Source: a virus
Length of the DNA: 43,368 nt
Direction: 5' to 3' (one strand)
Virus record (IMG/VR): IMGVR_UViG_3300037839_000874
Location: 1-43,368 of that record
Shown here: positions 1,788-18,323 of the stretch, piece by piece
Layout: the number at the start of each line of letters is the position of its first letter
Position numbering within the stretch: position 1 is the first letter of the stretch
The notes under the pieces: generated by a model
Told to the model about the DNA's origin: nothing
The model's input: the letters and a program-made list of their open reading frames with translations, nothing else
The model's database searches: none
Made by a program: the position numbers and the translations under genes

Positions 1788-1984
1788 TTAACCAATAATG
1801 TTTATCACACCAGCCATGCTACTATGATATTCGCAGTTATAGTACAAAGTACTTGGAGCGCCAACATCAACAACAAATGTTAATGCACCACTAGCAGTTC
1901 CTTTATTTGTGACTCCTGTACTGTAAGCGTTTGCTGTTCCTAAGCTGTTGATTGTTTTGATCCAGAAATGATCACCAGACGCTA
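1788..1984 (-). pseudogene. Relic of a C-terminal cupredoxin-like domain of the fibre gene
   Basis: Directly after the fibre stop, another frame of the minus strand encodes the second half of a cupredoxin-like domain: HFWIKT, then YYNCEYHSSMAG, ending in TAA at 1788-1790. The DNA closely matches the end of the plus-strand gene at 17001-18323, with 95 bp identical. Compared with that copy, roughly 110-120 bp holding the first half of the domain are missing. The deletion joins the Thr linker to the remaining half out of frame, so the fibre stops within the shared ATTAGCG stretch. I read this as a decayed domain by deletion plus frameshift. A translational frameshift that rescues it cannot be excluded. 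It fills the only gap between the convergent tape measure and fibre genes; I see no clear terminator hairpin there. Confidence 0.75.
1807..1901 (-). repeat. Left copy of a 95-bp perfect inverted repeat
   Basis: The reverse complement of this stretch is identical, base for base, to 18210-18304. The similarity continues at lower identity on both sides, including the upstream Thr-linker DNA. The two copies are inverted and about 16.3 kb apart, and they bracket the whole minus-strand tail-tip operon. Both encode the second half of a cupredoxin-like domain, but this copy is out of frame with its gene. Confidence 0.93.
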
Positions 1985-4900
1985 ATATAATGGTGTCGTA
2001 GTTGAGGCACTTGTTGTGGTAGTAGTTGTAGTGGTCGTTGGAGCAGCTGTAGTAGTTGTGGTGGTCGTCGTTGGAGCAGCTGTAGTAGTTGTGGTCGTCG
2101 TTGGAGCAGCTGTAGTAGTTGTGGTGGTCGTAGTGGTGGTTGGCTCTTCGTTTGAAAAAGAGAATACTTGAGATAATACGTCTCCGCTTTTATCAATTAG
2201 AAGAACCTTCACTGCAAAAGTGTTACCATTATTAATCCAAGATTCATAATCTTTTTTAATTTTATTAAATAATTGTGCTCCTCGTTTGGAAAACGAAAAA
2301 TTTGGAACATCTAAATAGATCGAATAACCTTTAACAATTTCATCAAATACATAACTATCAATTAAATCTGAACTACTCCATGATATATTGTTGATATCAT
2401 CTGGTTTCTTCATATATATAAAGACTTTATTTAAAGCTACGTTATGCTCTGGATAGAATATGATTCCAAAATTTAAAGTATTATCAGATATAGTTGGTTT
2501 TTGATATTTTATTTGATGCATTGACTCGCTATAATCTAAGCCTTTATATCTCCAAGCAAGTGAACCAAGAACATTACTTGTTGTTTCATATAGTCTACCA
2601 ACAGGATAATTATTTTCAATTTGATTTGCTACAAAATTTGATAATATATAGAATTGTTTATATGGAGCTCTTGATCTAGTCGGATCTTCAGTTTCAACAC
2701 AGCATCCTCTAACGCAATCTGTATCATTAGTTAATTTTATATAAATGCATTCCTTTAGAATGCTAAATTGATTAATAGACGTGTTCGTAGCTAGAACATA
2801 AAAATCTCCAAAAAATGGCTTATCATCTTTGTCTTCTATTATCTTAAATTGAGTCGGATATACCAAAAATGATATCATTTTCTTAGAATCTACTATAGAT
2901 TTTTGATCTATATTGATTCCATTTAAAATAGGGTCATTATCTACTCCGCAAGATGACACGAATTTAGCAATAAAGTAATGATAATTGACTCCATCAATTT
3001 CTTTGATACCTTTTTCTAACACTGTATCTGTTCCAGATATTCCTTGAATTATAAAGTCTTCTGCATCTGGAATATCTAATATAAACTCTATAATTGCATA
3101 TGCATCTTCTTTTTGTATTCCTGCACTAATAAATTTAACAGATAAAATGTTTTTAGCTTTAAAATAATTTAAATCATAATTTATACTTTTAAAGTCTGCA
3201 GTATTTGGTGAGTCTACATCTCCAATATTGCCTGGATCATAAGCTCCTAAGTAGGTTAGACTACCATTTATTCCAGAAGAGGGAATATTTTCTGGAGTAG
3301 GAAAATTAAAGGTCTTATCACTAGCATATTTATAAGAGTCTAAGCATCTGTATGTGCTTTTGTATTTAATATCATTTGGAAAAGTGTTATTTATTTGAGC
3401 ATTTGCTAAAGGAAAATAATCAAAGAATTGTGGTCCAGATGCTACGCCATCATATTCAAAATCTAGCATACTTGCTCCGCCTTTATTTAAGTAAGTGTTT
3501 CTATAACTTTGATTTGGCCAAGAAATATAAGGGAAACTCTCTGGAGTAAAGAAATAAACTAATCCTTGATAACTGGCTGCTATTGTTGATGTATAATTTT
3601 TATTTTCTTTTATAAATTTATTAAGAACAATATACTTATCTATAATCTCTGTATTTTGAATATAATTCAATAGTCCATCTATACTATAATCTATTGCATC
3701 TAAATGAAGGCTTAAAGAGTAAGCTTGTAATGCGTTCAAATAATACAATTTTACAGAAAATATATTATCTTTAAGAAGTTGACTATCTGGATTCAAGTAT
3801 GTTGTAATTCTATATTTTATTTCGTTTTGAGCGTCTATTAATTCTACAGAATAGTTCTTTTCAGAATTACTATCTATTTCGTCTAATTTTCTTAAAAAGA
3901 TATAATCATCTTGATAATTTTTACTCTGTTCGTTGTTGATATTCTCTTGATATTTTTGAGGAATAATAATTATAGAGTCTAATCCTATAGTAAATGGAAG
4001 ATCTCCTTTGATGTCAAATGTAATTTTATTGTCTTCGCCCCTTTTATAGTTTTTAAACATGCTAGTGATTTGACTTTTAGGGATAAAATTATGATCAATT
4101 TTCGTAATTTTGAATCCATCTTGATTTGTATATCTTTCTTGATCTGAAGGATTATTAATATTTCCGCCAGCTGATGAAAACCCATCTTCATCAATAGCCT
4201 CGCTTACTATATAATAAGAACTGTAATGTCCTGGATCATAAACATTAACATAACTTGTGGGTCTTGTGCCAGATACACCAGTCAAACTTAACAGTTTTTC
4301 TGAAAATGATTGTTCAGTATCTACTTTTGGATTAAATAATATAACATTGTCGTCAAATTCTCCTGCTTGATATTTTTCATTTTTAATAGAAAAGCCTTGA
4401 TAATTTGTGACATAATCAAAAATAAAGTATCTATTATTTGCAGAAGAAGCAGCAGGATAAGCTGTAGATGAATAAATATTAATATCTTGTATATATAATC
4501 GATCATTACTAAATAAATTTTTATTTATAGAAGTGCCTACAGAAGAAGTATTAAGAATATCATTAGAGGTATTTCTAAGAAGGGTTTGGTCAAAAAGAAT
4601 TCCACTATTATTCTCAATTGCTGGAATAACTCTACTATTAATTCTTATTAGTTTATCTCGAAACGAATTGCTAAAATCTTTATAATTAAAACCTTGATTA
4701 TAGACATAGTCTTCTTCTGTTTTAGAAGAATAATTTAATTGATATCCTAATAAAGCGTAAGGCTCTTTTATAATCGCACTATTAGAATAAGTCGTAAGTT
4801 GCATTTGGCCACTAGTATAGTAATTACAATTTACAAGACTAACTTCTTTAATTGGTCTTTGAGAAGGTATGACTCCAGTAAATAATACTCCAGATGATTC

Positions 4901-6466
4901 TAAGCCAAAACTATTTTTATAAAATACTGTCAAATAATATAAACCTGTTCCATTTGGGATATGGTAAAAAGATTGACTTAGTTCAGAAAAAGGTAATTGT
5001 TTAATTAAGAAGTTATTACTATTGCTATCTGGCTCAATATTATATGTATAATCGCTAAGATAGATGTTATAGTATTCTATATTTTCTGTATTATCTTTTG
5101 GATTTATTAAGACTTTAAATCCTTTAGTATTTTTAGTAATATTAACAATACTTACTTCGACTGATAGCGATGGAGTTGGAGTTGTGGTGGTAGTAGTTGT
5201 GGTGGTAGTAGTTGTGGTAGTTGGAGCTGGAGTCGTTGTGGTGGTAGTAGTTGTGGTGGTAGTAGTTGTGGTAGTTGGAGCTGGAGTAGTTGTGGTAGTA
5301 GTTGTGGTAGTTGGAGCTGGAGTAGTTGTGGTAGTAGTTGTGGTAGTTGGAGGACTAAACAGCGCCAAGCTATGATAGCCTCCAGCACTTATATCGATAG
5401 CTCCAGTTAAAAAATTGCCACCTAGTTGACCATAAGAATTTTCTCCCCAACCAGTTACCTTTCCATTGTTAAGCAGAGCTAAGCTATGATAGAGTCCAGC
5501 ACTTATATCGATAACTCCAGTTAAAAAATTGCCACTTAGAGCTTGACCATTAGTATTTAATCCCCACCCAGTTACATTTCCATTGTTAAGCAGAGCTAAG
5601 CTATGATAGCCTCCAGCGCTTATATCGATAACTCCAGTTAAAAAATTGCCATCTAGTTGACCATAAGAATTTTCTCCCCAACCAGTTACCTTTCCATTGT
5701 TAAGCAGAGCTAAGTTATGATAGAGTCCAGCGCTTATATCGATAACTCCAGTTAAAAAATTGCCACCTAGTTGACCATAAGAATTTTCTCCCCACCCAGT
5801 TACCTTTCCATTGTTAAGCAGAGCTAAGCTATGATAGAGTCCAGCGCTTATATTGATAACTCCAGTTAAAAAATTGCCACTTAGAGCTTGACCATTAGTA
5901 TTGAATCCCCACCCAGTTACATTTCCATTGTTAAGCAGAGCTAAGCTATGATAGCCTCCAGCGCTTATATCGATAACTCCAGTTAAAAAATTGCCACTTA
6001 GAGCTTGACCATTAGTATTGAATCCCCACCCAGTTACATTTCCATTGTTAAGCAGAGCTAAGTTATGATAGAGTCCAGCGCTTATATCGATAACTCCAGT
6101 TAAAAAATTGCCACTTAGAGCTTGACCATTAGTATTTAATCCCCACCCAGTTACATTTAAGAATGGATCAATTATATTGATCGTCCCAGCCATGCTACCA
6201 TGATATTCACAGTTATAATACAGAGTACTTGGAGCGCCAGCGCCGACAACAAATGTTAATGTACCATTATCTGTTCCATTATTTGTGACTCCTGTGCTGT
6301 AAGAGTTTGCTTGTCCTGTAGTCTGAGTTGTTTTAATCCAGAAAGGATGACCACTAGCATTAATAGTAAATGTATATATTTGTCCTCGAGTTAACGTTAA
6401 TGTAGGATTACTAACTCCGTCTATAACGTAAGCTCCTGAACCGCTATTTGTTACTACGAATGCCAT
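1982..6466 (-). CDS. Tail fibre / host-interaction protein: cupredoxin, RCC1 repeats, Thr-rich linkers
   Basis: This 1494-aa protein is probably a virion fibre at the tail tip, because it directly follows the gpJ-like gene with a TAATG stop-start overlap. GGAG lies 9-10 nt before the ATG. Residues 1-100 form a cupredoxin-like domain with possible copper ligands His40, Cys86, His89 and Met92. Residues 104-370 are seven near-identical RCC1-type repeats with VTGWG and ISAG.YH.LAL. Residues ~374-434 are a Thr/Pro-Ala linker. A fibronectin-III-like stretch follows at ~435-545, then about 900 residues I do not recognise. The last ~53 residues are a second Thr/Ala/Pro linker ending in PLY. That ending is odd, because the linker leads into a domain that is now truncated and out of frame. 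RCC1 repeats normally build a seven-bladed propeller, and seven are present. Receptor binding is inferred from position and architecture. Confidence 0.75.
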   Translation of the reverse strand: MAFVVTNSGSGAYVIDGVSNPTLTLTRGQIYTFTINASGHPFWIKTTQTTGQANSYSTGVTNNGTDNGTLTFVVGAGAPSTLYYNCEYHGSMAGTINIIDPFLNVTGWGLNTNGQALSGNFLTGVIDISAGLYHNLALLNNGNVTGWGFNTNGQALSGNFLTGVIDISAGGYHSLALLNNGNVTGWGFNTNGQALSGNFLTGVINISAGLYHSLALLNNGKVTGWGENSYGQLGGNFLTGVIDISAGLYHNLALLNNGKVTGWGENSYGQLDGNFLTGVIDISAGGYHSLALLNNGNVTGWGLNTNGQALSGNFLTGVIDISAGLYHSLALLNNGKVTGWGENSYGQLGGNFLTGAIDISAGGYHSLALFSPPTTTTTTTTTPAPTTTTTTTTTPAPTTTTTTTTTTTTTTTPAPTTTTTTTTTTTTTTPTPSLSVEVSIVNITKNTKGFKVLINPKDNTENIEYYNIYLSDYTYNIEPDSNSNNFLIKQLPFSELSQSFYHIPNGTGLYYLTVFYKNSFGLESSGVLFTGVIPSQRPIKEVSLVNCNYYTSGQMQLTTYSNSAIIKEPYALLGYQLNYSSKTEEDYVYNQGFNYKDFSNSFRDKLIRINSRVIPAIENNSGILFDQTLLRNTSNDILNTSSVGTSINKNLFSNDRLYIQDINIYSSTAYPAASSANNRYFIFDYVTNYQGFSIKNEKYQAGEFDDNVILFNPKVDTEQSFSEKLLSLTGVSGTRPTSYVNVYDPGHYSSYYIVSEAIDEDGFSSAGGNINNPSDQERYTNQDGFKITKIDHNFIPKSQITSMFKNYKRGEDNKITFDIKGDLPFTIGLDSIIIIPQKYQENINNEQSKNYQDDYIFLRKLDEIDSNSEKNYSVELIDAQNEIKYRITTYLNPDSQLLKDNIFSVKLYYLNALQAYSLSLHLDAIDYSIDGLLNYIQNTEIIDKYIVLNKFIKENKNYTSTIAASYQGLVYFFTPESFPYISWPNQSYRNTYLNKGGASMLDFEYDGVASGPQFFDYFPLANAQINNTFPNDIKYKSTYRCLDSYKYASDKTFNFPTPENIPSSGINGSLTYLGAYDPGNIGDVDSPNTADFKSINYDLNYFKAKNILSVKFISAGIQKEDAYAIIEFILDIPDAEDFIIQGISGTDTVLEKGIKEIDGVNYHYFIAKFVSSCGVDNDPILNGINIDQKSIVDSKKMISFLVYPTQFKIIEDKDDKPFFGDFYVLATNTSINQFSILKECIYIKLTNDTDCVRGCCVETEDPTRSRAPYKQFYILSNFVANQIENNYPVGRLYETTSNVLGSLAWRYKGLDYSESMHQIKYQKPTISDNTLNFGIIFYPEHNVALNKVFIYMKKPDDINNISWSSSDLIDSYVFDEIVKGYSIYLDVPNFSFSKRGAQLFNKIKKDYESWINNGNTFAVKVLLIDKSGDVLSQVFSFSNEEPTTTTTTTTTTAAPTTTTTTTAAPTTTTTTTTAAPTTTTTTTTTSASTTTPLY
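1985..2143 (-). repeat. Thr/Ala-Ala-Pro linker repeat at the fibre C-terminus
   Basis: Degenerate 30-33-bp tandem units encode runs of 7-10 Thr separated by AAP. The core acagctgctccaac also occurs in the plus-strand linker at 17853-18023, in inverted orientation. The tract is a likely site of slippage and of recombination with that other linker. Confidence 0.85.
5165..5347 (-). repeat. Central Thr/Pro-Ala-Pro linker repeat of the fibre gene
   Basis: This low-complexity DNA, read on the minus strand, encodes Thr runs of about 9-15 separated by PAP. It joins the RCC1 block to the rest of the fibre. The long Val-rich reading frame on the opposite strand is only its antisense shadow. Confidence 0.88.
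5357..6157 (-). repeat. Seven tandem RCC1-type repeats (114-117 bp each)
   Basis: The units are 39 aa (type A, NTNGQALSG) or 38 aa (type B, ENSYGQLGG) and run A-A-A-B-B-A-B from the N-terminal side. DNA identity between units is very high, which points to recent duplication or gene conversion. Variation is confined to a few spots: the type A/B segment, G.YHS versus L.YHN, and single Asp/Asn changes. Confidence 0.92.
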
Positions 6467-9400
6467 TAGATATTATCTCCTAAATCGTATTTGCTTTCAT
6501 CATATTGTAAAGCTGTAATTTTATGTCTATGTTCTTCTAATTCTTCTATATCTAGAATTCTAAATTTTTGAGTTTTATCAATATAAGGCTCTAAAGCTGC
6601 GCCTGGATACTTATTAGTTGGATCGCTAAGACCAAAAACACTCGGACTTTTATTATAATCATAATTGTCTGGATTAATTTCTATTGTCCAAACTGTGTTT
6701 TGAATTAAAGTATGCTGTATATTATCTAATCGTTGCCCTGCAAAATCTATTCTTGTATATCCTTGAAAACTTCCAGTATTTTGCATAGTTGCATACAAAC
6801 CAAATACGCTAGTATCAGTTGGATTCAGCACTGTATAATCTGTTGCATATTTTATTGTTTGAACTTGTTTTCTCCTTAGAACAGACGAATATCCACTTGG
6901 CATAGACGTATTTTGAGGAGCCTCAGAAAGAGTTTTGAAAATTAAATTTCCAGTTTCTGTTCCAATTTCAATATTTCCTGCAGGTGTTAGAACATTAAAA
7001 TTGCAACCATTAATAGCAGGTAAAAATCCAGAAATATCTTCATATTTTATATCTAGAATAGCATAATTAGTCTCTAATTCATAAGTTCGTCCACCTAATA
7101 TTTTATTTTGTCTATTTTGATCTTGAATATATACAATATCTCCTGGTTTTAAATACATAGCAGGTAAACTTGTTTCAAAACTAACTAGTTCTGATTCTAA
7201 ATTCTCTGATAATAACGTCCATTTACCTAGCCTAGCAGCTTGACCTTCGCTTGTGCAACCAAAAGCACTAACTTCAATTTCTTTTATACCAAATCTAATT
7301 AAACCCTCTCTGCTCTCTACATATTTAACCGCTGGTTTATAAAAATTTTCTTTGTCATTATATCTTACAAGAGCCACATTTCTTCTGACTCTTTTACTTG
7401 TATTACTATAAGTAAATTCTCCTTCTTTAACATTACTATTATTAAAGATATATAAAGGTTCTTTTGGTCTATCTTGAGATGTGAATATTAGTCCTGCGCT
7501 ATAAAAAACTATTGCTCTGAAAATGCTAGCCATATCATTAAGGACTTTGTAAGCATCTTCTCTTGTGCTAATTAATACATTAGCTGTGAACCTTGGTTCT
7601 AATCCACCTTTTGAGTCGCTCACTAACTCATCACAATATTGAGATATCTCATATAAGGTCCATTTATCTGTTAGATTTGGATCAATATATCTTCCTAATC
7701 CATATCGGTCATTCGTAACTAAATCATAAAAGCACCAAGCAGGATTATCTGTCCAGCCTAGATTAAAATTACCGTCCCAACTTCCATCATAAGTTTTAGA
7801 ATAAGGATCATAATTAGAAGGAATTTTAACTTTCAATAATCTTGCATCATATGACCTTTGAGGAATACTTGTAAAAAATCTAGAATCAAATGTAGTTATT
7901 ATTCCAGCAGTATTAGGCAAACTCAAATAATCGTCATATATTTCAGTGATTGAATCAATACTACTTTTTACAACAATATTAATATCAACGCTTTCTATAT
8001 AGACTGGTTCAACTTCTATTTCCCATCCAATTGTATTAGAATTTATATACCTATTCAAACCACTCCATTCAAAGGTTTCAATAAATTGTCCTTGATTTAA
8101 TTTTCCAGCTATCACTAATGTAGCGTAGTCTCTAGCTTCTCCAGATAATAATCTTTGTTTTTTATCTATATAATCTTGCAAAGCTGATCTAAAATCTGTT
8201 TGTAATCTATTTACATCTCTTGCATAAGATGTATAAAGTTTACCATCATGCCTATGGGAATAAATTGTCCTTCCATTAATAAATTCTGTATAATTAGCTG
8301 GTTGTCTTTGATAACCATCTGGCCCAGATCCAGCTCCTCCGCCTGGAGAATTTGGTGGCCAAAATAAAGCTAATACATCATTTTCTATACTATATACAGT
8401 ATTATAATATGTTTCTTCACTTATAGTAAATGTACCGCCAGAAGATCCTGTATAATTTGGATTTGGGATTAGTGTTACTTCTTTGCCTTTATTAGGAGTA
8501 TAATCTATCCTTTTTAAATAAAGATTTAATTGCATATCTAAACGATCTGTTCGACCTGATACAGAATTTGCTGCAGCTTGATCAGCTGTATCCCATATAG
8601 TTAAATCAACTATACTTTTAAATAAACTTAAAATCTTTATACTAAGTCTTAATCCATATAAATTTTTTGTTAAAATAACAATAGACTTTTTATAGGTTTT
8701 AGATGTTCCATCTTCAAAAACTCTTTTTCCAAAAAGCTTTGTTCCAACAACTTTTGTACTAGTTAATCTTTTTGGTAATTTAACTCCAGAAGATAAAATT
8801 GTTTCAGGTCCGTCTTGTTTTAAAACTAATTTATCTATTTGTTGGCCATTATTTATTTTACGAGAATAAAAAGGTTCTTCTAATTTTATATTTCCTAGTT
8901 CTGTTAAATTTGCATGCCTTGGAGCAGAATCTGCATAATCGTAGCTCATTCTAACAAATTCAAAATTAAAACTTCCATTAAGCGGATAGGAGTTATCTGC
9001 TAAAGGTATTTCATTCCAATAAATAGATCTAACTTGAGGATTCTTTCCTGCATATTTAACTAATTTAACTCCATTTTTATAGCCTGTATCTCCTTTTGCA
9101 TATCCTGGATTTGGAATGATTTCATAATCTACTATTCCCTCTATAGGGCCTTCTCCAAGAATGTCTAACACAGATATATTAGTTAAAGAAGTAATACCAA
9201 TATCTTTACTATCTTTAAGCTTATTACCATATCTATAACCATAACTATCAATTTTTATATCTGCTCCTGCTCTAGAGACTAGAGTACCACAATTTTTTGG
9301 AACAACAGTAGATGTTAGAGCCCAGTTTGCATAATACGAGGTAAATTTGCCAAACTTCCAATTACCCCAGCCGAACTCCTTATGGTATGCTCCCTGATAC

Positions 9401-11451
9401 TGGGATCGCTCGGTGCGGGGCATATCTATCCACTGCGTGAAAAAACAAGAATACACATCTCCTACTCGAGCAACATTATATGTTCCAAAATACATATAAA
9501 ATCTTTGATAACTACTATTGAAAGCACAAGTATCTGCAAAGTTAACATAAAATGGATAAGTTTTTCCATTTTGAGATGGAATTCCATTAGGATATTTTAA
9601 TAAACCACTTTTAGATAATCTTTGAGTTGCAATACCTGATGTCTTTTCTAAATTGCCAGATCCGATATCAAAAACTACTTGATGCTCTACTTGAGTTGGA
9701 CTAATAGTTACCGTTGGAATATTTTCTGCTGGATTACCGCTCAAACCACTTTTAGCTGTATTCGTAGTAGTAACGCTAAGAGTCTCGCTAAAAGGTGTAG
9801 ATGCTGGACCAGAACTGCCAGTACCTGGACTATAGCAAAGATTACCTAATAGATCTTGACCTCCAATTGAAGAATATTCAATGCTATAATTACCTGTTAT
9901 TTTTATGCCAAACTCATTCTTTTTTTTGTCTGGATCAGTTAAATTTATCCAAAAACAACTTTCTGCATCTACTCCTTGCCCTGGACTAAAAGAGGTACTG
10001 GGAACATTTTTTCCTATATATGAGATGCTTTCTGGTTCACCATTTTTTCTTATTGTTTCAAATTCACTTTTATTTATTTTTTTAAATTTTATCATTTCAT
10101 CCCCAATAGTCCCTAGAGTTAAATTTATTTTATTATTTTTTATAGTATCATAACTCCAAGAAGGAAGATTGAGAGTACTTGGATAAACTGTGTTAGAATT
10201 TTTGTTTGAAAATTCATATGCAGAAAAATTAAATGTTAAAGTCACTTTTGAACTTGAACCCCTGGCATTAGAGCAGCTAGCGTAAGCATAAAATGTTCCT
10301 GCGTGTATTGGAGAGCCTGTTATAGTTTTGCTAGAGCTATTAAAAGTCAATCCTTCTGGAAGATTAGATATTCCAATTACAGTATGTTTATTATTTAGTC
10401 CTGCTAAAATTTGATTTCCTATAGAGGTATCAACCTTTCCACTAAAAGTTTTAGCACTAATTGTTGGTATAGTTATTGCAGTATTGACTGCTCCATATAG
10501 CACTATTAAATTAAAACTTTTTCTATTTCCTGCGTCTTGATTTGGTCCAAATATAGTGAAATTTAAATTACTAATTTGCATTTCTGAACTTAAATTATTG
10601 GATACAGTGCCACTGATTATTTTAGTAATGCTATTCCATGTTAATCCTAAATTTGCTATTATATTTTGCGAACTTGCATCAAGGTCTACGCTAAATCCAG
10701 AAGCTGGTAAATTAGTAGTCAATGTATAAGAGAAGCCCACTCCTTTAAATGCATGTATTGTAGGAGCACTAGTCACATATATAGGGTCATTACCATTTGC
10801 ATCTGTACTTTTTATTGTTAAGCTTTTGCTAGCTTTAAGCTCCTCTAATTGAGTAGTTTTTCCTACTTTAACATATTTATTTCCATATAAAACAGATGTT
10901 ATAATTCCTGTAAAATATCCAACATAATTAATTTGATTTTTCTTGAAAGGTATGGTGGCGCTATTAATTGCGCTAAAAGTGAATGGATCGGTAGAGCTTG
11001 AGTCTCCAAGTTTACCAAAATTTGTATAAGTTAAATATGATGTAACTTGATCTAATGTTACATTAAAATTAAAAGCACTTCCTATTTTTGTAGTTGTAAT
11101 ATAAGAGCTATTTATCGTTGCTGAATTTAATGCGACTCCAGGAGTACCATACATTACTAATCCATTAATAAAACTCCAAACAAACCAAAAACCTTTTGAT
11201 TTATCTATGCCTTCTATTAATACTGAATTATTTTGAGAAGGTGGTAAAGAAGTTAAAGAGTTTCCGCCGCTACTAAAGATCGGATTGTAAGCATCAACAA
11301 TATCATTGACATTTGCTAAAACAATATCTGTAGTGGGGCTTCCTACATCATTATAGATAGTTTGTCCATCAAAAGATATACCATTTTTCCCTCGCCAAGC
11401 TAAGCCTTCGATATATTTATTAGGATCGCAATCTTTACATTTTTTAGCCAT
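6466..11451 (-). CDS. gpJ-like tail tip / central fibre protein
   Basis: This is the tip attachment protein J of lambda-type siphophages, which forms the distal tail hub and contacts the receptor. I chose the ATG at 11451, 4 nt after the gpI stop, giving 1661 aa that begin MAKKCKDC; a longer frame to 11523 would overlap gpI by 68 bp. The J core starts near residue 759 with SVLDILGEGPIEGIVDYE. It continues through IGWEIEVEPVY (~1140), DNPAWCFYDLVTNDRYGLG (~1235-1250) and LKPGDIVYIQDQN (~1430-1445), all in the expected order. The first ~750 residues are an extra extension. They include putative-Ig-type modules, one containing LPEGLTFNSSSKTITGSP near residue 370. Lambda gpJ is about 1130 aa, so this is a long version. 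The stop overlaps the fibre start. Confidence 0.92.
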   Translation of the reverse strand: MAKKCKDCDPNKYIEGLAWRGKNGISFDGQTIYNDVGSPTTDIVLANVNDIVDAYNPIFSSGGNSLTSLPPSQNNSVLIEGIDKSKGFWFVWSFINGLVMYGTPGVALNSATINSSYITTTKIGSAFNFNVTLDQVTSYLTYTNFGKLGDSSSTDPFTFSAINSATIPFKKNQINYVGYFTGIITSVLYGNKYVKVGKTTQLEELKASKSLTIKSTDANGNDPIYVTSAPTIHAFKGVGFSYTLTTNLPASGFSVDLDASSQNIIANLGLTWNSITKIISGTVSNNLSSEMQISNLNFTIFGPNQDAGNRKSFNLIVLYGAVNTAITIPTISAKTFSGKVDTSIGNQILAGLNNKHTVIGISNLPEGLTFNSSSKTITGSPIHAGTFYAYASCSNARGSSSKVTLTFNFSAYEFSNKNSNTVYPSTLNLPSWSYDTIKNNKINLTLGTIGDEMIKFKKINKSEFETIRKNGEPESISYIGKNVPSTSFSPGQGVDAESCFWINLTDPDKKKNEFGIKITGNYSIEYSSIGGQDLLGNLCYSPGTGSSGPASTPFSETLSVTTTNTAKSGLSGNPAENIPTVTISPTQVEHQVVFDIGSGNLEKTSGIATQRLSKSGLLKYPNGIPSQNGKTYPFYVNFADTCAFNSSYQRFYMYFGTYNVARVGDVYSCFFTQWIDMPRTERSQYQGAYHKEFGWGNWKFGKFTSYYANWALTSTVVPKNCGTLVSRAGADIKIDSYGYRYGNKLKDSKDIGITSLTNISVLDILGEGPIEGIVDYEIIPNPGYAKGDTGYKNGVKLVKYAGKNPQVRSIYWNEIPLADNSYPLNGSFNFEFVRMSYDYADSAPRHANLTELGNIKLEEPFYSRKINNGQQIDKLVLKQDGPETILSSGVKLPKRLTSTKVVGTKLFGKRVFEDGTSKTYKKSIVILTKNLYGLRLSIKILSLFKSIVDLTIWDTADQAAANSVSGRTDRLDMQLNLYLKRIDYTPNKGKEVTLIPNPNYTGSSGGTFTISEETYYNTVYSIENDVLALFWPPNSPGGGAGSGPDGYQRQPANYTEFINGRTIYSHRHDGKLYTSYARDVNRLQTDFRSALQDYIDKKQRLLSGEARDYATLVIAGKLNQGQFIETFEWSGLNRYINSNTIGWEIEVEPVYIESVDINIVVKSSIDSITEIYDDYLSLPNTAGIITTFDSRFFTSIPQRSYDARLLKVKIPSNYDPYSKTYDGSWDGNFNLGWTDNPAWCFYDLVTNDRYGLGRYIDPNLTDKWTLYEISQYCDELVSDSKGGLEPRFTANVLISTREDAYKVLNDMASIFRAIVFYSAGLIFTSQDRPKEPLYIFNNSNVKEGEFTYSNTSKRVRRNVALVRYNDKENFYKPAVKYVESREGLIRFGIKEIEVSAFGCTSEGQAARLGKWTLLSENLESELVSFETSLPAMYLKPGDIVYIQDQNRQNKILGGRTYELETNYAILDIKYEDISGFLPAINGCNFNVLTPAGNIEIGTETGNLIFKTLSEAPQNTSMPSGYSSVLRRKQVQTIKYATDYTVLNPTDTSVFGLYATMQNTGSFQGYTRIDFAGQRLDNIQHTLIQNTVWTIEINPDNYDYNKSPSVFGLSDPTNKYPGAALEPYIDKTQKFRILDIEELEEHRHKITALQYDESKYDLGDNI

Positions 11452-11455
11452 AAAA

Positions 11456-12778
11456 TTAAAATGATAATGAATTCTGAGACATAGAAATTCCTCCAATATC
11501 TTGAATATCGATTGGATATCCAAGATGTGAAAAATAAAAACTTTTTGTCGGATAATTCTTTTCCCCTGCTCCTACACCTATCGGAGCCTTACCATCGCTT
11601 TCATATTTATTTGTTCTAGACTGCACTCGATATATTTGGTCATAAGAGCTAAAGACTTGTTGACTACCAATAATTAATCTTCCGTATCCAATTGGAATTG
11701 GTCCTCCTTCTCCTACTGTATTTACAGGACCATTAAATGTGTAAGAAGGCTCTCCCCCACCAGCACCAGGAGATGCTTCAAAATCTGCAGAAGGATTTGC
11801 AATTGTTTGAGGACTTACCATTGGTGGCGGTTTCATTAAAAGCATAGAAACTCCGAGCGCTACTAATCCTAATATTGCTGGTAATATAGCAGCTAATAAA
11901 CCAAGAGATCCTCCTCCAGATACTGGAGCTAACATAACTGACATAAATATCATAAGCACCATTTTAGCTCCTGCCATACCACCTTGTGCAGCTTTACCAC
12001 CACCACCTCCTTTTCCTCCTCCTCCATTGTGAACGAGGATCTCATTAGCAATGTAAGTATGATTTGTTAACACATGGAAATTATATACTTTTTCGCTACC
12101 ATCTTCTTCTATCTTTTCGATTGGCATTACATCGCCACTTTCATGTATTAAAACATCTCCAACTTTAAAATTTTCTAAAGGAGTAAATCTATTATATTCA
12201 TTAAAAAACCAATGATTACCTGTGGCTCTAATGATTGAGCCATCCCATAATGTAATTTTTAAAATTTTATTATTTTCATGTTCAAAAACTTTTTCAATTA
12301 TATCAATTTGTATTTGCTTGTTTTTATCAAAAGAGAATATTTCATCTCCTTCTTTTAAATCTTCTATGTTCTTAATTCCGCTAGGAGTAGATATTTTTGT
12401 CCCAGCTGGGAAACATCCTCCACCGCCACCTCCGCCTCCTCCGCCTCCTGCGCCTTCCAGAACTGGTATAATATCAATAGTTTTTAACTGGTTTTCGAAA
12501 TTCATGAACATTTCAGATTGAGACAACATTTCAAAATGTTCTTTTTTAACTTGGCTGTTGTCTGTTGGCATTTCTTCTGCTTTAGGGACCCATAATGGTC
12601 TATTATTTATTAATATTTCATATTTAGCGTTTTTTTCAGCTTGATTTATAAGAAACCTAGTTAATTTTTTGGTATTTGCTTCTATAGCCCTAAAAGCTTC
12701 TGCAACGCTTGTGACGTTCAAGTTCCATTCTTCGCCAATCTCTTGGCCCAAATTACCATGTAATTTAACTTTTACCAT
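11456..12778 (-). CDS. gpI-like tail assembly protein interrupted by a Hint (intein-like) domain
   Basis: In lambda-type phages gpI acts with gpK in tail-tip assembly. Residues 1-~108 match the N-terminal ubiquitin-like part of the family. Then come 11 Gly and a 130-aa Hint domain (residues 122-251), a second Gly-rich stretch, and a hydrophobic stretch (about residues 275-320) that could span the membrane. A conserved end follows with FNGPVNTVGEGGPIPIGYGRL, very like lambda gpI. Without the Hint domain the protein would be ~310 aa. The residue after the Hint terminal HN is Gly, not Cys, Ser or Thr, so ordinary splicing is not expected and cleavage is more likely. The gene overlaps the gpK end by 14 bp and lies 4 nt before gpJ. 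The family call is firm; the processing outcome is inference. Confidence 0.9.
   Translation of the reverse strand: MVKVKLHGNLGQEIGEEWNLNVTSVAEAFRAIEANTKKLTRFLINQAEKNAKYEILINNRPLWVPKAEEMPTDNSQVKKEHFEMLSQSEMFMNFENQLKTIDIIPVLEGAGGGGGGGGGGGCFPAGTKISTPSGIKNIEDLKEGDEIFSFDKNKQIQIDIIEKVFEHENNKILKITLWDGSIIRATGNHWFFNEYNRFTPLENFKVGDVLIHESGDVMPIEKIEEDGSEKVYNFHVLTNHTYIANEILVHNGGGGKGGGGGKAAQGGMAGAKMVLMIFMSVMLAPVSGGGSLGLLAAILPAILGLVALGVSMLLMKPPPMVSPQTIANPSADFEASPGAGGGEPSYTFNGPVNTVGEGGPIPIGYGRLIIGSQQVFSSYDQIYRVQSRTNKYESDGKAPIGVGAGEKNYPTKSFYFSHLGYPIDIQDIGGISMSQNSLSF
12026..12415 (-). other. Hint / bacterial-intein-like domain inside gpI
   Basis: These 130 codons run from Cys122 (CFPAGTKI, splice block A) to the HN pair at 250-251. 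Block B is seen as ATGNHWF with the T..H arrangement, and block G as the final VHN. There is no room for a homing endonuclease, so it is a minimal Hint fold. Poly-Gly flanks it on both sides. The +1 residue is Gly and so lacks the nucleophile for canonical splicing, as in bacterial-intein-like domains that mainly cleave. Confidence 0.87.
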
Positions 12779-13517
12779 TGCTTAACTCCTTGTACCTTAA
12801 AACATAGCTAGTATGTTTTTTAAGAAAACTATCATATATATTTACACAAGAAAAGGAATTGAAAGGTTGATGTAAAATTAATCCATCACCTATATATACT
12901 GCCGCATGAGTAGGAAAATCATTAGAGACTCCAGGAAAAGTCATCATTAAGCCATCAGATTTTTTCAATTTTACATTTTTATCTAATTTTAAAAAACCTT
13001 GGTGTTTGAAGTTGTTCTCGTACAAGTCCTTAATATCTTCTAAATATTTAGGATAAACTAAATCTTTAGGAAAATTTATATGGATATTCTCTTCTTTTAA
13101 GGCATACTCTTTCATCAATGTAAAGCAGTCAGATTGACCAAGAACAAAAGGTCTTCCAATATAAGGATTATTTTCTTCATTTGGCTTATGAAAATTAAAA
13201 AAATCATATTTAATATTATATAATATATAATGGATCTTATAAAGATTACTATTATGTTTATCCATTTCACTAAACTCTACGCTTTCATTAATATGAGAAT
13301 GATAGCATGCTATAATTTTACCTAAAATAGAGCAATTTAAATAGTCTTGTGGGGATATCATAAAATTATTTTTTTTATCGTCTGATCTATTTCGACAAGA
13401 ATATATCTCAAATTTATATGTTTTTTTATCTAAATAAATAAAACCACAAATTTCTTGTTCAGATTTTTTTAAAGCTAAATTTTTAATATGATTTTTAATT
13501 TGAATATTAAATTCCAT
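12765..13517 (-). CDS. gpK-like tail-tip protein: JAMM (MPN) plus NlpC/P60 peptidase
   Basis: I chose the ATG at 13517, 1 nt after the gpL stop and with GGAG about 9 nt upstream, giving 250 aa. A longer frame to 13580 would run into gpL. Residues ~15-95 are a JAMM metalloprotease-like domain with Glu22, His73-Ser-His75, Ser83 and Asp86, the full metal-binding set. Residues ~120-250 are NlpC/P60, with Cys131 in GQSDCF and His204 in THAAVYIGDG as the likely catalytic pair. Lambda gpK has the same two-domain order and is needed for tail assembly. The NlpC part may also cut peptidoglycan during entry. The end overlaps gpI by 14 bp, so the two genes are probably translationally coupled. Confidence 0.92.
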   Translation of the reverse strand: MEFNIQIKNHIKNLALKKSEQEICGFIYLDKKTYKFEIYSCRNRSDDKKNNFMISPQDYLNCSILGKIIACYHSHINESVEFSEMDKHNSNLYKIHYILYNIKYDFFNFHKPNEENNPYIGRPFVLGQSDCFTLMKEYALKEENIHINFPKDLVYPKYLEDIKDLYENNFKHQGFLKLDKNVKLKKSDGLMMTFPGVSNDFPTHAAVYIGDGLILHQPFNSFSCVNIYDSFLKKHTSYVLRYKELSNGKS

Positions 13518-13518
13518 A

Positions 13519-15822
13519 TTATGCTGCTCCAGGACTTTGCTGAGATTGGAATTTTCCTTCAACAGAAGGAAATCCTCCAAATGGGAGGATTCCGATTAAC
13601 TGATTTCCATTCCCATCTTTTGGTGCTTGAATTTCCATTTTAACTAAAGGATCGAGCGATGAACCATTTAATCCGTACTTATCATTTAAAGATAGTTTAA
13701 CCCTGTTAAAATTTATATTTTCTTTCCATCTTAATCTACATCCTTCTAAACTTTTAGAACATGAATCTGCGGTCCAGTATGATGTATTTGGCGGAGAATT
13801 TATAGAATCTGAAGTATGAGGAGCACTGCAAACAAAATAAAATTTAATTTGATTTTTTTCTATATATATATAATTTCCAAAATTGTAAGCTATCCCTTGC
13901 TTCCAAAAACCTCTATCTACCCATATGCCATCGGTCCTTATAGAAGAGAAAGTATTATTTGATTCATCTGCTACTGGTGGTGCAGATTCGAGTCCTACGC
14001 ATTTTTGTGAGGACGATATATCTATTTTAGATACTCCCTCGTAGCTAGAAGAGTTAACTATTTGATCAATTTGGCCATATACTCCTGAATGAACTGCAGT
14101 TAATCTATCAGATTTTTCATATAAACATCCAGCCCCTCGATAAGAGAATGGACAATTTTTAGATAGCAACAGCCTTCCAGGTAATTTTATACCTTCGACA
14201 TCTAAAAGAGATGCTAATTCGTAAACTACATTTTGAGAATCTTCTTGTGTTTTTCGGTCTATGTAATAAATGTCTGGAGTTAGTTCTACTTCATAAATAT
14301 CAATTTTATTCTTATCAACTTGCTCTAAGTAAAGCCTAGCCATATTATGATATGAATTATACATCTGGGCATCCTCAGGACTATTCAAGTCGTCTGTTAT
14401 ATAATCCGTAGCAATTAAATTAACATTTTGAGTTCCTAATTGAACATTGTCTCCTGTATGAGAAGCTACAAATGTACATCCTGTTGAGCTAATATTCTTT
14501 AAATATTGATTGTATGCAAATCCTGCAGAGCCCCAGCTATTAAATAATAACTTTGGCATATTTGAAAATTGCGTTGAAAATGAAATATTTAATTCTCCAG
14601 AAGTAGCTGAACCAAAATTATAATTTAATCTTAATGCTACTAATTTAGCATTTTCATTTGTAGTTGAATTTGTACCAGTATAAATTCCAGTAGGTATAGT
14701 TAAGTAATTAATATCAAAACTGCCATTTAAAGATTTTGAAAATGAAGTAGTAAAACTTGAAGTTGCCTGAGAAGAAATTGAATAATTAAAACTTTGCCCT
14801 TTAGCTTCATCTATGGATTTAAAAGACAAAAAAGTAGCTAATTCAGAGCTTGATTCAGAAAAAGTCACAGGATAATTAACAGTAGAGCTTGTGGTATCAC
14901 TAAAAACTTTAGAGCTATAATAGCAAAGAACTTTAATTTTATCATTTGTTCCTATTTTTTTGAACTCTTTTGCATCATCTTGTATTAATCGCGTATAGCC
15001 TGCACTTGATGGAATAATAAAATTATCTGAAGAAAAACTGTCTGTAATATCAGATGAATAGTTAACTTGTTCATTAACTAGTAGATTAAAAAAATCTAAA
15101 GAATTTAAATTATAATTAATTTTTTGAAGATCAATATTCAAAGTTTTCAGTCTATCATCTGTGCGTAAAAGCGTAAAGATTTTATTAGTAGTTGCAGTAG
15201 TTTTTCTTGTATAAACTAACCATTTAGCAAAATCAATCGGACACCTTTCCAAAGATCTAACAGTTAATGTATCTCCATCTCTTGAGGCCCAAGGAGTATC
15301 CGTAAAAGTATTGAAAGGATTGACTCCTGCTGGAAAATTATTTGGACTTAAATATCTTACAAAGGTCTTTCTTCTTGTTACTTTAGATCCAACAATATCT
15401 TTTAATTCATTAATCTGCATCCTTATATACTTATAAAAAGAATTAAATTCATCATCTAAGAATTGACTGGAAAATTTAATTCTTGGAGTTGGTATTGTTC
15501 CGTTTGAAGTTATATCAAATTGTTCTCCATAAATTGGAAATGGAAAATAAAGATTCCCTCTCCAAGAGATAATTCCTCTATTTATATTAAAAAGATTAAA
15601 ATCATTATGTACTCTAATCACTCCATCTTTGACTGGCCCATTTCTATTTGGATAAGATACCATTGCAGGTTTGATTTCATTCAGATCAATTTCGTAAAGA
15701 AAAACTGGAGTACTCGGTTCTATTTCATGAATATGAGAATTTATAGATCTTTGAGCTTCAAGCGCTTGTAAAAAATATTCGCTTGCTTGAATAGTAGCAT
15801 TCAGATTTGGACCCATTCCCAT
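13519..15822 (-). CDS. gpL-like minor tail protein
   Basis: This 767-aa homologue of lambda gpL is a tail-tip component placed between M and K as in lambda. The diagnostic region is near the C-terminus: NCPFSYRGAGCLYE followed by DSCSKSLEGCRLRW. The four cysteines correspond to those that hold an iron-sulfur cluster in lambda gpL. Between the two Cys pairs lies an aromatic insert with VC..PH and a YW end, which looks like a small carbohydrate-binding (CBM5/12-type) fold. Lambda gpL is only ~230 aa; the extra length is mostly in the N-terminal and central beta-rich, Ser/Asn-rich part. GGAG lies 10 nt before the first ATG. A second in-frame ATG two codons later is possible. Confidence 0.87.
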   Translation of the reverse strand: MGMGPNLNATIQASEYFLQALEAQRSINSHIHEIEPSTPVFLYEIDLNEIKPAMVSYPNRNGPVKDGVIRVHNDFNLFNINRGIISWRGNLYFPFPIYGEQFDITSNGTIPTPRIKFSSQFLDDEFNSFYKYIRMQINELKDIVGSKVTRRKTFVRYLSPNNFPAGVNPFNTFTDTPWASRDGDTLTVRSLERCPIDFAKWLVYTRKTTATTNKIFTLLRTDDRLKTLNIDLQKINYNLNSLDFFNLLVNEQVNYSSDITDSFSSDNFIIPSSAGYTRLIQDDAKEFKKIGTNDKIKVLCYYSSKVFSDTTSSTVNYPVTFSESSSELATFLSFKSIDEAKGQSFNYSISSQATSSFTTSFSKSLNGSFDINYLTIPTGIYTGTNSTTNENAKLVALRLNYNFGSATSGELNISFSTQFSNMPKLLFNSWGSAGFAYNQYLKNISSTGCTFVASHTGDNVQLGTQNVNLIATDYITDDLNSPEDAQMYNSYHNMARLYLEQVDKNKIDIYEVELTPDIYYIDRKTQEDSQNVVYELASLLDVEGIKLPGRLLLSKNCPFSYRGAGCLYEKSDRLTAVHSGVYGQIDQIVNSSSYEGVSKIDISSSQKCVGLESAPPVADESNNTFSSIRTDGIWVDRGFWKQGIAYNFGNYIYIEKNQIKFYFVCSAPHTSDSINSPPNTSYWTADSCSKSLEGCRLRWKENINFNRVKLSLNDKYGLNGSSLDPLVKMEIQAPKDGNGNQLIGILPFGGFPSVEGKFQSQQSPGAA

Positions 15823-17000: not shown

Positions 17001-18323
17001 ATGTTATCTAGATTTACAAGAGAATTTAATAGAGTCTATATTAACGATGTTCCTGTAACAGGAGCACAATCAATTTCTGCTAGTTATGATCTGCCAATAG
17101 AGAATATTAAATATTTGGGGTCGAATAATAATCATTTAAATAGGGTTCCAATTGGAATATTCGTTGGGGCTCTAAATTTAGATTCTTTGTTTATTAATAA
17201 TGATCAATTTATTCAATATACTGGCGAATTAGGAGCTAATGTAAAAGTCCAATATGAAGATAATACATTCGGTATGAATAGCGGATATATGGCCGAATAT
17301 GATTTTTCTTGTGGAATAGGCACAATACCAATTTTATCTACAAAGTGGAACTTTTACAGTGATTTTGGTAATATAGCATCTTCAAAATTGCCTTTCCCTA
17401 TGGATGAAAGCAAGCTTAATATAGTAAATCCAGGGGACATACAGATAGATTTTAATGAATTAGAAAATGAGAAAATTAACAATTTAAAGGTCAATATTAA
17501 ATGCAATAGATTGCCTATTTTTGATGCAACTTCTGTAAAGCCTGTGGATGTTAAATTGCAATATCCAATTATTATTACCACAAGCTTTTCAATATCTTTG
17601 CATGATTATCAAAACAAACGCTTATTCGACTATCCAAATAATCAAAATATTTATAATTTTAACATAAATCTATATAAGAATAACACCTCCGATATAATTC
17701 AATCATTTAACATTAAAGATGCTCTATTGGTTAGAGAAGATTTCAATACAGACGTAGATGGTAGTAGTTTGATGCAATTAAGTTATGCTAGTCATATTAG
17801 TAGATCTGAATCTGGACCATACACAACGAATGTAAGTAGTTTTACGATTAATACTACTACAACTACCACCACAACTACTACAGCTGCTCCAACAACCACT
17901 ACGACTACTACTACAGCTGCTCCAACAACCACTACGACTACTACTACAGCTGCTCCAACAACCACTACGACTACTACTACAGCTGCTCCAACAACCACCA
18001 CAACTACAACACCAGCTCCAACAGTATTTACTGTCACTAATAGTGATAGTGGTGCATATGTAATTAATGGGTCTAGTAATCCAACGCTAAATCTTACAAG
18101 AGGCTCAACATATACGTTTAATATTAGCGCCGCTGGTCATCCTTTCTGGATCAAAACAACTCAGACCACAGGACAAGCAAACGCTTACAATACAGGAGTC
18201 ACAAATAACGGAACTGCTAGTGGTGCATTAACATTTGTTGTTGATGTTGGCGCTCCAAGTACTTTGTACTATAACTGCGAATATCATAGTAGCATGGCTG
18301 GTGTAATAAACATTACTGGTTAG
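17001..18323 (+). CDS. Tail-tube-like protein with Thr linker and C-terminal cupredoxin domain
   Basis: This is the first gene of the plus-strand surface operon (440 aa), with AAGG-type ribosome sites just upstream. Residues 1-~284 hold two related beta-rich repeats of the kind seen in the next two genes (ISASYDL.IENIKYLG; AEYDFSCGIGTIPIL). Residues 285-341 are a Thr/Ala-Ala-Pro linker. Residues 342-440 are a complete cupredoxin-like domain with possible copper ligands His380, Cys426, His429 and Met432. The C-terminal domain is a near copy of the fibre N-terminal domain and of the relic at 1788-1984. The repeat fold suggests a tail-tube or tail-decoration protein carrying an exposed domain on a mucin-like stalk. 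The repeat relationship is seen; the tube assignment is a guess. Confidence 0.6.
   Translation: MLSRFTREFNRVYINDVPVTGAQSISASYDLPIENIKYLGSNNNHLNRVPIGIFVGALNLDSLFINNDQFIQYTGELGANVKVQYEDNTFGMNSGYMAEYDFSCGIGTIPILSTKWNFYSDFGNIASSKLPFPMDESKLNIVNPGDIQIDFNELENEKINNLKVNIKCNRLPIFDATSVKPVDVKLQYPIIITTSFSISLHDYQNKRLFDYPNNQNIYNFNINLYKNNTSDIIQSFNIKDALLVREDFNTDVDGSSLMQLSYASHISRSESGPYTTNVSSFTINTTTTTTTTTTAAPTTTTTTTTAAPTTTTTTTTAAPTTTTTTTTAAPTTTTTTTPAPTVFTVTNSDSGAYVINGSSNPTLNLTRGSTYTFNISAAGHPFWIKTTQTTGQANAYNTGVTNNGTASGALTFVVDVGAPSTLYYNCEYHSSMAGVINITG
17853..18023 (+). repeat. Thr/Ala-Ala-Pro linker with 33-bp tandem repeats
   Basis: Three identical 33-bp units start at 17880, 17913 and 17946, and a fourth diverged unit starts at 17979. 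Each encodes AAP followed by a Thr run. Identical repeats in coding DNA imply recent expansion, and the length may vary between relatives. The linker is the inverted counterpart of the fibre linker at 1985-2143. Confidence 0.92.
18210..18304 (+). repeat. Right copy of the 95-bp perfect inverted repeat
   Basis: This is identical to the reverse complement of 1807-1901. Here the sequence is in frame and encodes the second half of an intact cupredoxin-like domain. Identity falls just outside the tract: about ten mismatches lie in the 20 bp around 18156-18177. That pattern fits gene conversion or a recent recombination patch. Confidence 0.93.

Follow-up and report, generated by a model that had tools for sequence, protein, structure and literature searches.

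A BIL-A-like Hint domain between the ubiquitin-like head and the plug of tail assembly protein gpI in uncultured phages: a putative self-processing device of the siphophage tail tip

Background

Autoprocessing Hint domains occur in inteins, Hedgehog proteins, bacterial secreted proteins and the ubiquitin loci of ciliates. Among the described forms, the type A bacterial intein-like (BIL) domains end in His-Asn and are followed by a residue (+1) that is not a nucleophile, and the accounts of what they do differ: one review (PMC4031507) describes them as splicing, with cleavage products dominant, ligation presumably following when the C-terminal amine, once freed, attacks the N-terminal thioester, whereas a second review (PMC7765530), which names blocks A, B and G for Hint domains, describes them as cleaving but unable to ligate. 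Since ligation without a +1 nucleophile has been reported, a missing Cys, Ser or Thr does not by itself imply that such a domain only cuts.

The tail assembly protein gpI of phage lambda (TAPI) belongs to a family to which a ubiquitin-like domain has been assigned, and cleavage by a JAB peptidase has been proposed at the last Gly of that domain (PMC1779556); the word "intein" is absent from the main text of that paper. In the lambda virion, gpI is described as a plug with two hydrophobic helices and its N-terminal domain is not resolved, the protein being visible only from residue 135 in one structure paper (PMC10721106) and only from residue 101 in another (PMC11101478). By titles and abstract openings, no description of a Hint or BIL domain in gpI or gpJ was found in the open-licence literature.

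Results

The DNA analysed here, hereafter the window, is the IMG/VR record IMGVR_UViG_3300037839_000874, a single virus record, 43,368 bases long, in which the gpI Hint profile matches once. The match lies in an open reading frame of 440 amino acids at 11456..12778 (minus strand, as are all features located below), which a first-pass annotation, made from the sequence alone, had taken for tail assembly protein gpI with an internal Hint domain. Profile comparison bears out the identity of the host protein: residues 1-114 match the phrog_32 tail assembly proteins (4.8e-24), residues 301-375 match the phrog_4554 tail proteins (2.9e-9), and the C-terminal part also matches PDB 9l9p, a "putative tail assembly protein" (1.3e-5). 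The neighbours are those of a lambda-type gpI, namely a gpK-like JAB and NlpC/P60 protein at 12765..13580 (phrog_30, 3.6e-56; Prok-JAB 2.9e-5 and NLPC_P60 8.7e-5, both slightly below the Pfam cut-off), in which the JAB motif is intact (HSHINESVEFSEMD), and a gpJ-like tail tip or central fibre protein at 6466..11523 (phrog_2589, 1.1e-126; phrog_31), which carries no Hint; the ubiquitin-like head, Gly-rich link and conserved C-terminal part of such a gpI are present as well.

The ubiquitin-like (beta-grasp) N-terminal part, residues 1-108 (12455..12778), ends in ..IDIIPVLE and is assigned as such through phrog_32 and the family assignment of TAPI (PMC1779556), a PDB profile search giving an E-value of 0.26. 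It is followed by a Gly tract, residues 109-121 (GAGGGGGGGGGGG; 12416..12454), in which positions 111-121 are eleven Gly, and then by the Hint domain, which Cys122 and Asn251 bound exactly where the first-pass annotation had placed it (residues 122-251; 12026..12415). The features named in that annotation can be read directly: Cys122, the candidate N-terminal nucleophile at Hint position 1 (12413..12415), Thr186 and His189 of block B (Hint T65 and H68; 12212..12223), the C-terminal cleavage residues His250-Asn251 (12026..12031) and, at +1, Gly252 in place of Cys, Ser or Thr (12023..12025). A downstream Gly/Lys tract, residues 252-271 (GGGGKGGGGGK..; 11966..12025), contains Lys256 (+5), which is invariant in the alignment of the gpI clade (10 sequences). 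The remainder, residues 272-440 plus stop (11456..11965), comprises hydrophobic helices and a plug/beta region that, judging from phrog_4554, PDB 9l9p and the lambda structure papers, is the counterpart of the gpI part resolved in the lambda tail tip. Elsewhere in the window, two proteins (1982-6466 and 17001-18323) contain long Thr-rich repeats (TTTTTTAAPTTTT), and one of them also has GWGxNxxGQ repeat units matching regulator-of-chromosome-condensation families.

Three family profiles match the Hint domain of the window, far above chance: Pfam PT-HINT (2.5e-11), NCBIfam TIGR01445 intein_Nterm (8.2e-9) and Pfam Intein_splicing (3.7e-9). By sequence its best solved structure is PDB 2lwy (5.9e-14), which leads again with a profile of 51 Hints (1e-26). 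An AlphaFold2 model of the domain, based on 51 aligned Hints, has a mean pLDDT of 97.0, and Foldseek ranks 2lwy first among its matches (E 7.2e-12, TMq 0.91), followed by BIL2 of Tetrahymena BUBL1 (6tmm, 6y75) and by the gp41-1 intein. The PDB title of 2lwy reads only bacterial intein-like domain, and we take it to be the type A BIL of C. thermocellum. Eight residues are invariant across 52 aligned Hints (C1, F2, I17, T65, H68, V128, H129 and N130), and include the catalytic set of Hint domains. By sequence and predicted fold the window domain groups with the type A BIL domains, with which it shares the Hint fold, the N-terminal Cys, the TxxH of block B, the C-terminal His-Asn and a +1 residue other than Cys, Ser or Thr. 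It does not lie in a hypervariable region of a non-conserved bacterial protein, gpI and gpJ being conserved phage tail proteins; as this concerns occurrence and not chemistry, we call the domain BIL-A-like rather than a classical BIL. A class 1 intein would have Cys, Ser or Thr at the position of Gly252, and a pretoxin Hint would have a toxin domain on its C-terminal side, where comparison with Pfam and PHROG profiles gave no toxin match in gpI. A homing endonuclease is absent from the gpI Hint, which is intact and not a broken intein. Outside the Hint, the model of the complete gpI (mean pLDDT 51.7) is of poor quality, also in parts of the ubiquitin-like region.

A scan of IMG/VR with gpI gave 24 loci, 23 with a full gpI and one (L024) that begins downstream of the Hint. 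The Hint begins with Cys, ends in HN and is followed by GG in 23/23 full-length relatives, and the 17 distinct gpI Hints, the window's included, all have Gly at +1 (16 with GGGGK, one with GGAGK). Over these 17 sequences (136 pairs, 134 of them usable for the ubiquitin-like part), the median pairwise dN/dS, at a dS near 1, is 0.127 for the Hint, 0.162 for the ubiquitin-like part and 0.143 for the C-terminal part. The Hint is thus under a constraint no looser than that on its host protein, which shows that self-processing or folding matters, be it in a useful device or in a self-excising parasite, the two being alike in this respect.

A profile of the C-terminal part of gpI matched 80 loci, 24 from the clade of the window and 56 others, and a Hint is present in gpI at 0 of the 55 informative loci outside the clade (56 minus L089, which is truncated ahead of the site). 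In the Hint-less gpI (~255 aa) the ubiquitin-like part joins the hydrophobic part directly, with G-[SAG]-G at the junction in 33/52 (the 52 matched by regular expression; 4/56 were unmatched). Because these relatives run from one part directly into the other, the Hint and its Gly tracts are an insert at the boundary between the ubiquitin-like part and the plug, the same place at which JAB cleavage has been proposed (PMC1779556). None of the Hint-less relatives found is near-isogenic, their identity being 36-60% in the best C-part segment. Cleavage by the Hint would separate exactly the plug part resolved in lambda from the N-terminal ubiquitin-like part. At the same boundary, the gpI relative of L119 has a long Gly/Ser-rich linker and no Hint.

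Hint domains are also found in gpJ. Nine distinct sister phages (L007, L008, L013, L015, L017, L018, L020, L022 and L023) carry a second Hint inside this protein, between GDVYxC and the canonical gpJ core, with Arg at +1 in five, Gly in three and Met in one. The insert is missing from the window and from L001, L002, L005, L006 and L014, a presence/absence polymorphism from which L003, L004 and L012 were left out, since in them the ORF breaks off at that point or a gpJ was not seen. Since the sister proteins have a Hint after GDVYxC and the window gpJ has none, GDVYSC at its residues 688-693 (9445..9462) is a natural empty site.

A DNA-pattern scan for VHNGGGG revealed, among the matches listed, many gpJ ORFs whose N-terminal region contains a Hint; Gly at +1 is built into this pattern and was not counted as evidence on that position. 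Ten post-Hint regions were compared with profiles, and 9/10 match phrog_31, central tail fibre J, the other (L266) matching phrog_1101, a tail protein. In a sample unselected on +1, chosen by the gpJ core (best 80 of 567 loci), 25 of the 80 uncultured siphophage loci have a Hint at the gpJ N-terminus (24 distinct sequences), a fraction that is not a population estimate, the core profile itself having been built from Hint-bearing gpJ. Cys1 is present in 25/25, and the +1 residue is Ala in 21 and Gly in four, never Cys, Ser or Thr. A Gly tract followed by Lys occurs in 24/25 of the Hint-bearing and 45/55 of the Hint-less gpJ of the sample. A similar I-x-G-[AS]-G-G motif stands at the tail of the ubiquitin-like part of gpI and at the N-terminus of gpJ in many loci (e.g. 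L403:3258-5662), and is the Hint insertion point in both genes. Two arrangements stand apart: L260 has tandem Hints at 149-541 and 572-961 with GGGGGGGGKG between them, ahead of the gpJ core, and in L214 a gpJ-like protein has a Hint that starts at residue 2082, close to the C-terminus, and then a further Hint-like stretch.

A pair of gpJ genes with and without the domain bears on its products. The gpJ start and flanking DNA of L377, which has a Hint, are nearly identical to those of L368 and L370, which have none. The Hint-less start reads MTRILGAGGGGGGGGGGKGGGG, and that of L377 reads MTRILGAGGGGGGG, then the Hint, then AGLGLGIAGAGGGGGGGGKGGGG; the insert lies in poly-Gly and, relative to the empty site, AGLGLGIAGAG is left extra, AGLG directly after the Hint being conserved in the L377 class. 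The post-Hint AGLGLGIAGAGGGG..K repeats the native start ILGAGGGG..K (motif I-x-GAGGGG..K), so that C-terminal cleavage alone would regenerate a native-like start and ligation would double it. This duplicated start favours cleavage in the L377/AGLG class. In the cultured Stenotrophomonas phage S72, gpJ has no Hint and is a single chain of short leader, GAGGKG and core; as it keeps a short leader ending in GAGGKG, a ligated product would also look normal. The conservation of Cys1 indicates that the chemistry at the N-terminal junction would matter as well.

Partial loci with a missing Hint or flank (L024, L159, L171) and the truncated gpI of L089 were set aside. Among 82 distinct Hints overall, Cys1 is absent in one (L227), the alignment end is shifted in one (L198), and +1 is Ser in two and Cys in one, in other proteins. 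In a tree of the 82 (132 columns), to be read with the caveat of few columns and long branches, the gpI Hints form one group (95/94) and the gpJ-internal Hints another (99/95), the two joined at modest support (81/90), a pairing that fits copying between neighbouring genes; the N-terminal gpJ Hints fall elsewhere, in several groups. Hints were also seen in other settings: mid-protein in very Gly-rich sequences of ~420-430 aa that are not gpJ-like and have Gly at +1 (L272, L289); as two successive domains in proteins of ~740-775 aa, with Tyr or Phe at +1 of the first and Lys at +1 of the second (L144-L148, L150, L151, L153, L154, L173); and in hypothetical proteins of the gut Ruminococcus phages NatCom_29429 and NatCom_3870 (L198 and L199; Ca. 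Heliusvirales), the latter having Hint domains at three places.

Searched against genome contigs, the full gpI profile gave 59 pattern stretches and no relatives, and the gpJ-Hint profile 18 pattern stretches and one relative, on a cyanobacterial MAG contig where the surroundings read as phage tail genes. In cultured phages, neither the gpI Hint nor the gpJ Hint was found among the matches listed (30/30, 3/3, 40/72, 25/1298 and 17/17 records). Matches to gpJ in Medea1 and Silvergun start ahead of the gene; the annotated gpJ begins behind the would-be Hint, and no Hint is annotated.

Discussion

From the anatomy, conservation, predicted fold, insertion site and recurrence set out above, we infer the following reaction steps and assembly role. 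A BIL-A-like domain, placed with a Gly-rich tract on either side where the ubiquitin-like head of gpI meets the plug, would form a thioester between Cys122 and the preceding Gly, and cyclisation of Asn251 would break the bond to Gly252. As there is no +1 nucleophile, the main outcome would be autocleavage at one or both ends, which would free the ubiquitin-like head and a plug with an N-terminal Gly/Lys tail; in a minor share of the molecules the freed Gly amine would attack the thioester and rejoin the flanks, a reaction described for type A BILs. Such self-processing would be a maturation step of gpI and, in relatives, also of gpJ.

We consider it rather probable, with some reserve, that the gpI domain is a working BIL-A-like device whose self-processing, mainly cleavage, serves the maturation of the tail tip. 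This reading draws on the invariance of C1, T65, H68, H129 and N130, the fold match to 2lwy, the low dN/dS, the constant Gly at +1 in gpI, the direct joining of the two parts in Hint-less gpI, the repeated start in L377 and the account of type A BILs as cleaving mainly (PMC4031507). Against it, gpI and gpJ often have no Hint, so that not every phage needs the processing; the short leader is also retained in Hint-less gpJ, which would make a ligation product acceptable too; a parasite obliged to excise itself would be under purifying selection just as much; no near-isogenic Hint-less gpI was found; and confidence in the full-length gpI model is low outside the Hint. The first-pass annotation had proposed that the Hint cuts gpI in two, a plausible mechanism on an incomplete premise: the position exactly between the ubiquitin-like and the hydrophobic plug parts, a +1 residue that is never Cys, Ser or Thr in gpI and the duplicated start motif of the gpJ pair speak for cutting, but the step from a missing +1 nucleophile to cutting rather than splicing is not supported, type A BILs having been reported to splice too (PMC4031507). 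The BIL-A-like nature of the domain, the gpJ Hints of sister phages and their commonness at the gpJ N-termini of uncultured phages had escaped it.

Several other readings compete with self-cleavage. The domain could be excised with ligation of its flanks, leaving gpI as one chain with a longer Gly linker, in which case it would be a mini-intein tolerated in a permissive Gly tract and not a maturation device. Both Cys1 and HN are kept, though C-terminal cleavage alone needs no Cys1; both positions next to the domain, -1 and +1, are mostly occupied by Gly, which causes the least steric hindrance; the S72 gpJ is colinear with a spliced product; and splicing of type A BILs without a nucleophile is on record (PMC4031507). 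In the same review cleavage products dominate, however, and in the AGLG class ligation would yield a doubled start, so that we regard nucleophile-independent splicing as a serious but unlikely alternative. That the domain is an inert relic, an intein without a +1 nucleophile carried as a spacer, would agree with the lack of a homing endonuclease and of a nucleophile at +1, but the catalytic residues are all invariant, the domain is under purifying selection and the site recurs in many lineages, which makes this very improbable. Slighter still are the chances that the Hint has taken over the cutting of the ubiquitin-like head from the JAB/NlpC peptidase of gpK. The insertion site is indeed the ubiquitin-like tail at which JAB cleavage was proposed (PMC1779556); the JAB motif, however, is intact beside the Hint in the window and in 11/11 sister loci tested, and by a regular-expression test it is present at 17/19 gpJ loci with a Hint and 37/40 without (those of the 25 and 55 loci, respectively, with enough upstream sequence), and we disfavour replacement for this reason.

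The domain order of ubiquitin-like part, Gly and intein-like domain, common to gpI and BUBL, raises the thought that the Hint forms a thioester at the C-terminal Gly of the head, from where the head would move to a Lys or another amine of the plug, of gpJ or of a further tail protein, in the manner of ciliate BIL2. Among the fold matches BIL2 ranks second, and it reportedly makes an ATP-independent isopeptide bond to Lys (PMC8616854); in gpI, every sequence of the clade alignment has Lys at +5. In gpJ, though, the Gly..Lys tract is a native feature, and its Lys need not serve the Hint; given its frequency in Hint-less gpJ, we rejected the conserved Lys as proof of conjugation. Moreover, no ubiquitin-like domain precedes the gpJ Hints, and none follows the gpI Hint, where the C-terminal part is the tail-plug region. 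Transfer of this kind is therefore improbable. It is likewise a long shot that the Hint is a built-in, ATP-free activator of the head, whose Gly thioester would be handed to an amine, whether that of the freed Gly, of a Lys in the Gly/Lys tract or of gpJ or another tail-tip protein, so as to wire parts of the tail tip together covalently; if true, this would give the BUBL conjugation of ciliates a counterpart in viruses.

Returning to self-cleavage, the chemistry is of a known kind, and what is new is the recurrent placement of Hint domains in the siphophage tail tip, in gpI directly behind the ubiquitin-like head. The repeated occurrence in the gpI plug protein and the gpJ hub/fibre, at Gly-rich boundaries and with no +1 nucleophile, points to self-processing as a step of tail assembly, one that lambda biology does not suggest, and the tail-tip Hints of uncultured phages probably trim tail proteins during assembly. 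The gpI Hint offers a direct handle on an old question, the fate of the ubiquitin-like head of gpI. Small natural Hints with Gly or Ala at +1, set in Gly linkers, could also serve as cleavage or ligation tools.

Compared with known systems, the gpI domain is nearest to the type A BIL of C. thermocellum as represented by 2lwy, with the Hint fold, Cys1, TxxH, terminal His-Asn and the lack of a +1 nucleophile in common. The BILs on record sit in the variable parts of bacterial proteins that are not conserved (PMC7765530), whereas the phage Hints lie in conserved tail-tip proteins, inside Gly-rich tracts. Class 1 inteins (gp41-1, DnaB, RecA) share the fold, Cys1 and His-Asn, and gp41-1 (6qaz) is among the top matches, but the gpI Hint is not followed by Cys, Ser or Thr and sits in a low-complexity Gly tract rather than at a conserved enzyme site. 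PT-HINT is the best Pfam match, but the gpI domain precedes a tail-plug part and not a toxin. With lambda, the phages of the window clade share a gpI of ubiquitin-like head, Gly-rich link and hydrophobic C-terminal part and a gpK with JAB and NlpC, the Hint being found in the window clade and in no other gpI examined here. The closest fold matches, finally, tie the phage arrangement to that of ciliates: in Tetrahymena BUBL1 (6tmm, 6y75), too, the intein-like domain directly follows a ubiquitin-like domain, but BIL2 lies between two such domains and transfers one of them to Lys (PMC8616854), whereas gpI has a single one, with the plug after the Hint, and the shared domain order is probably convergent.
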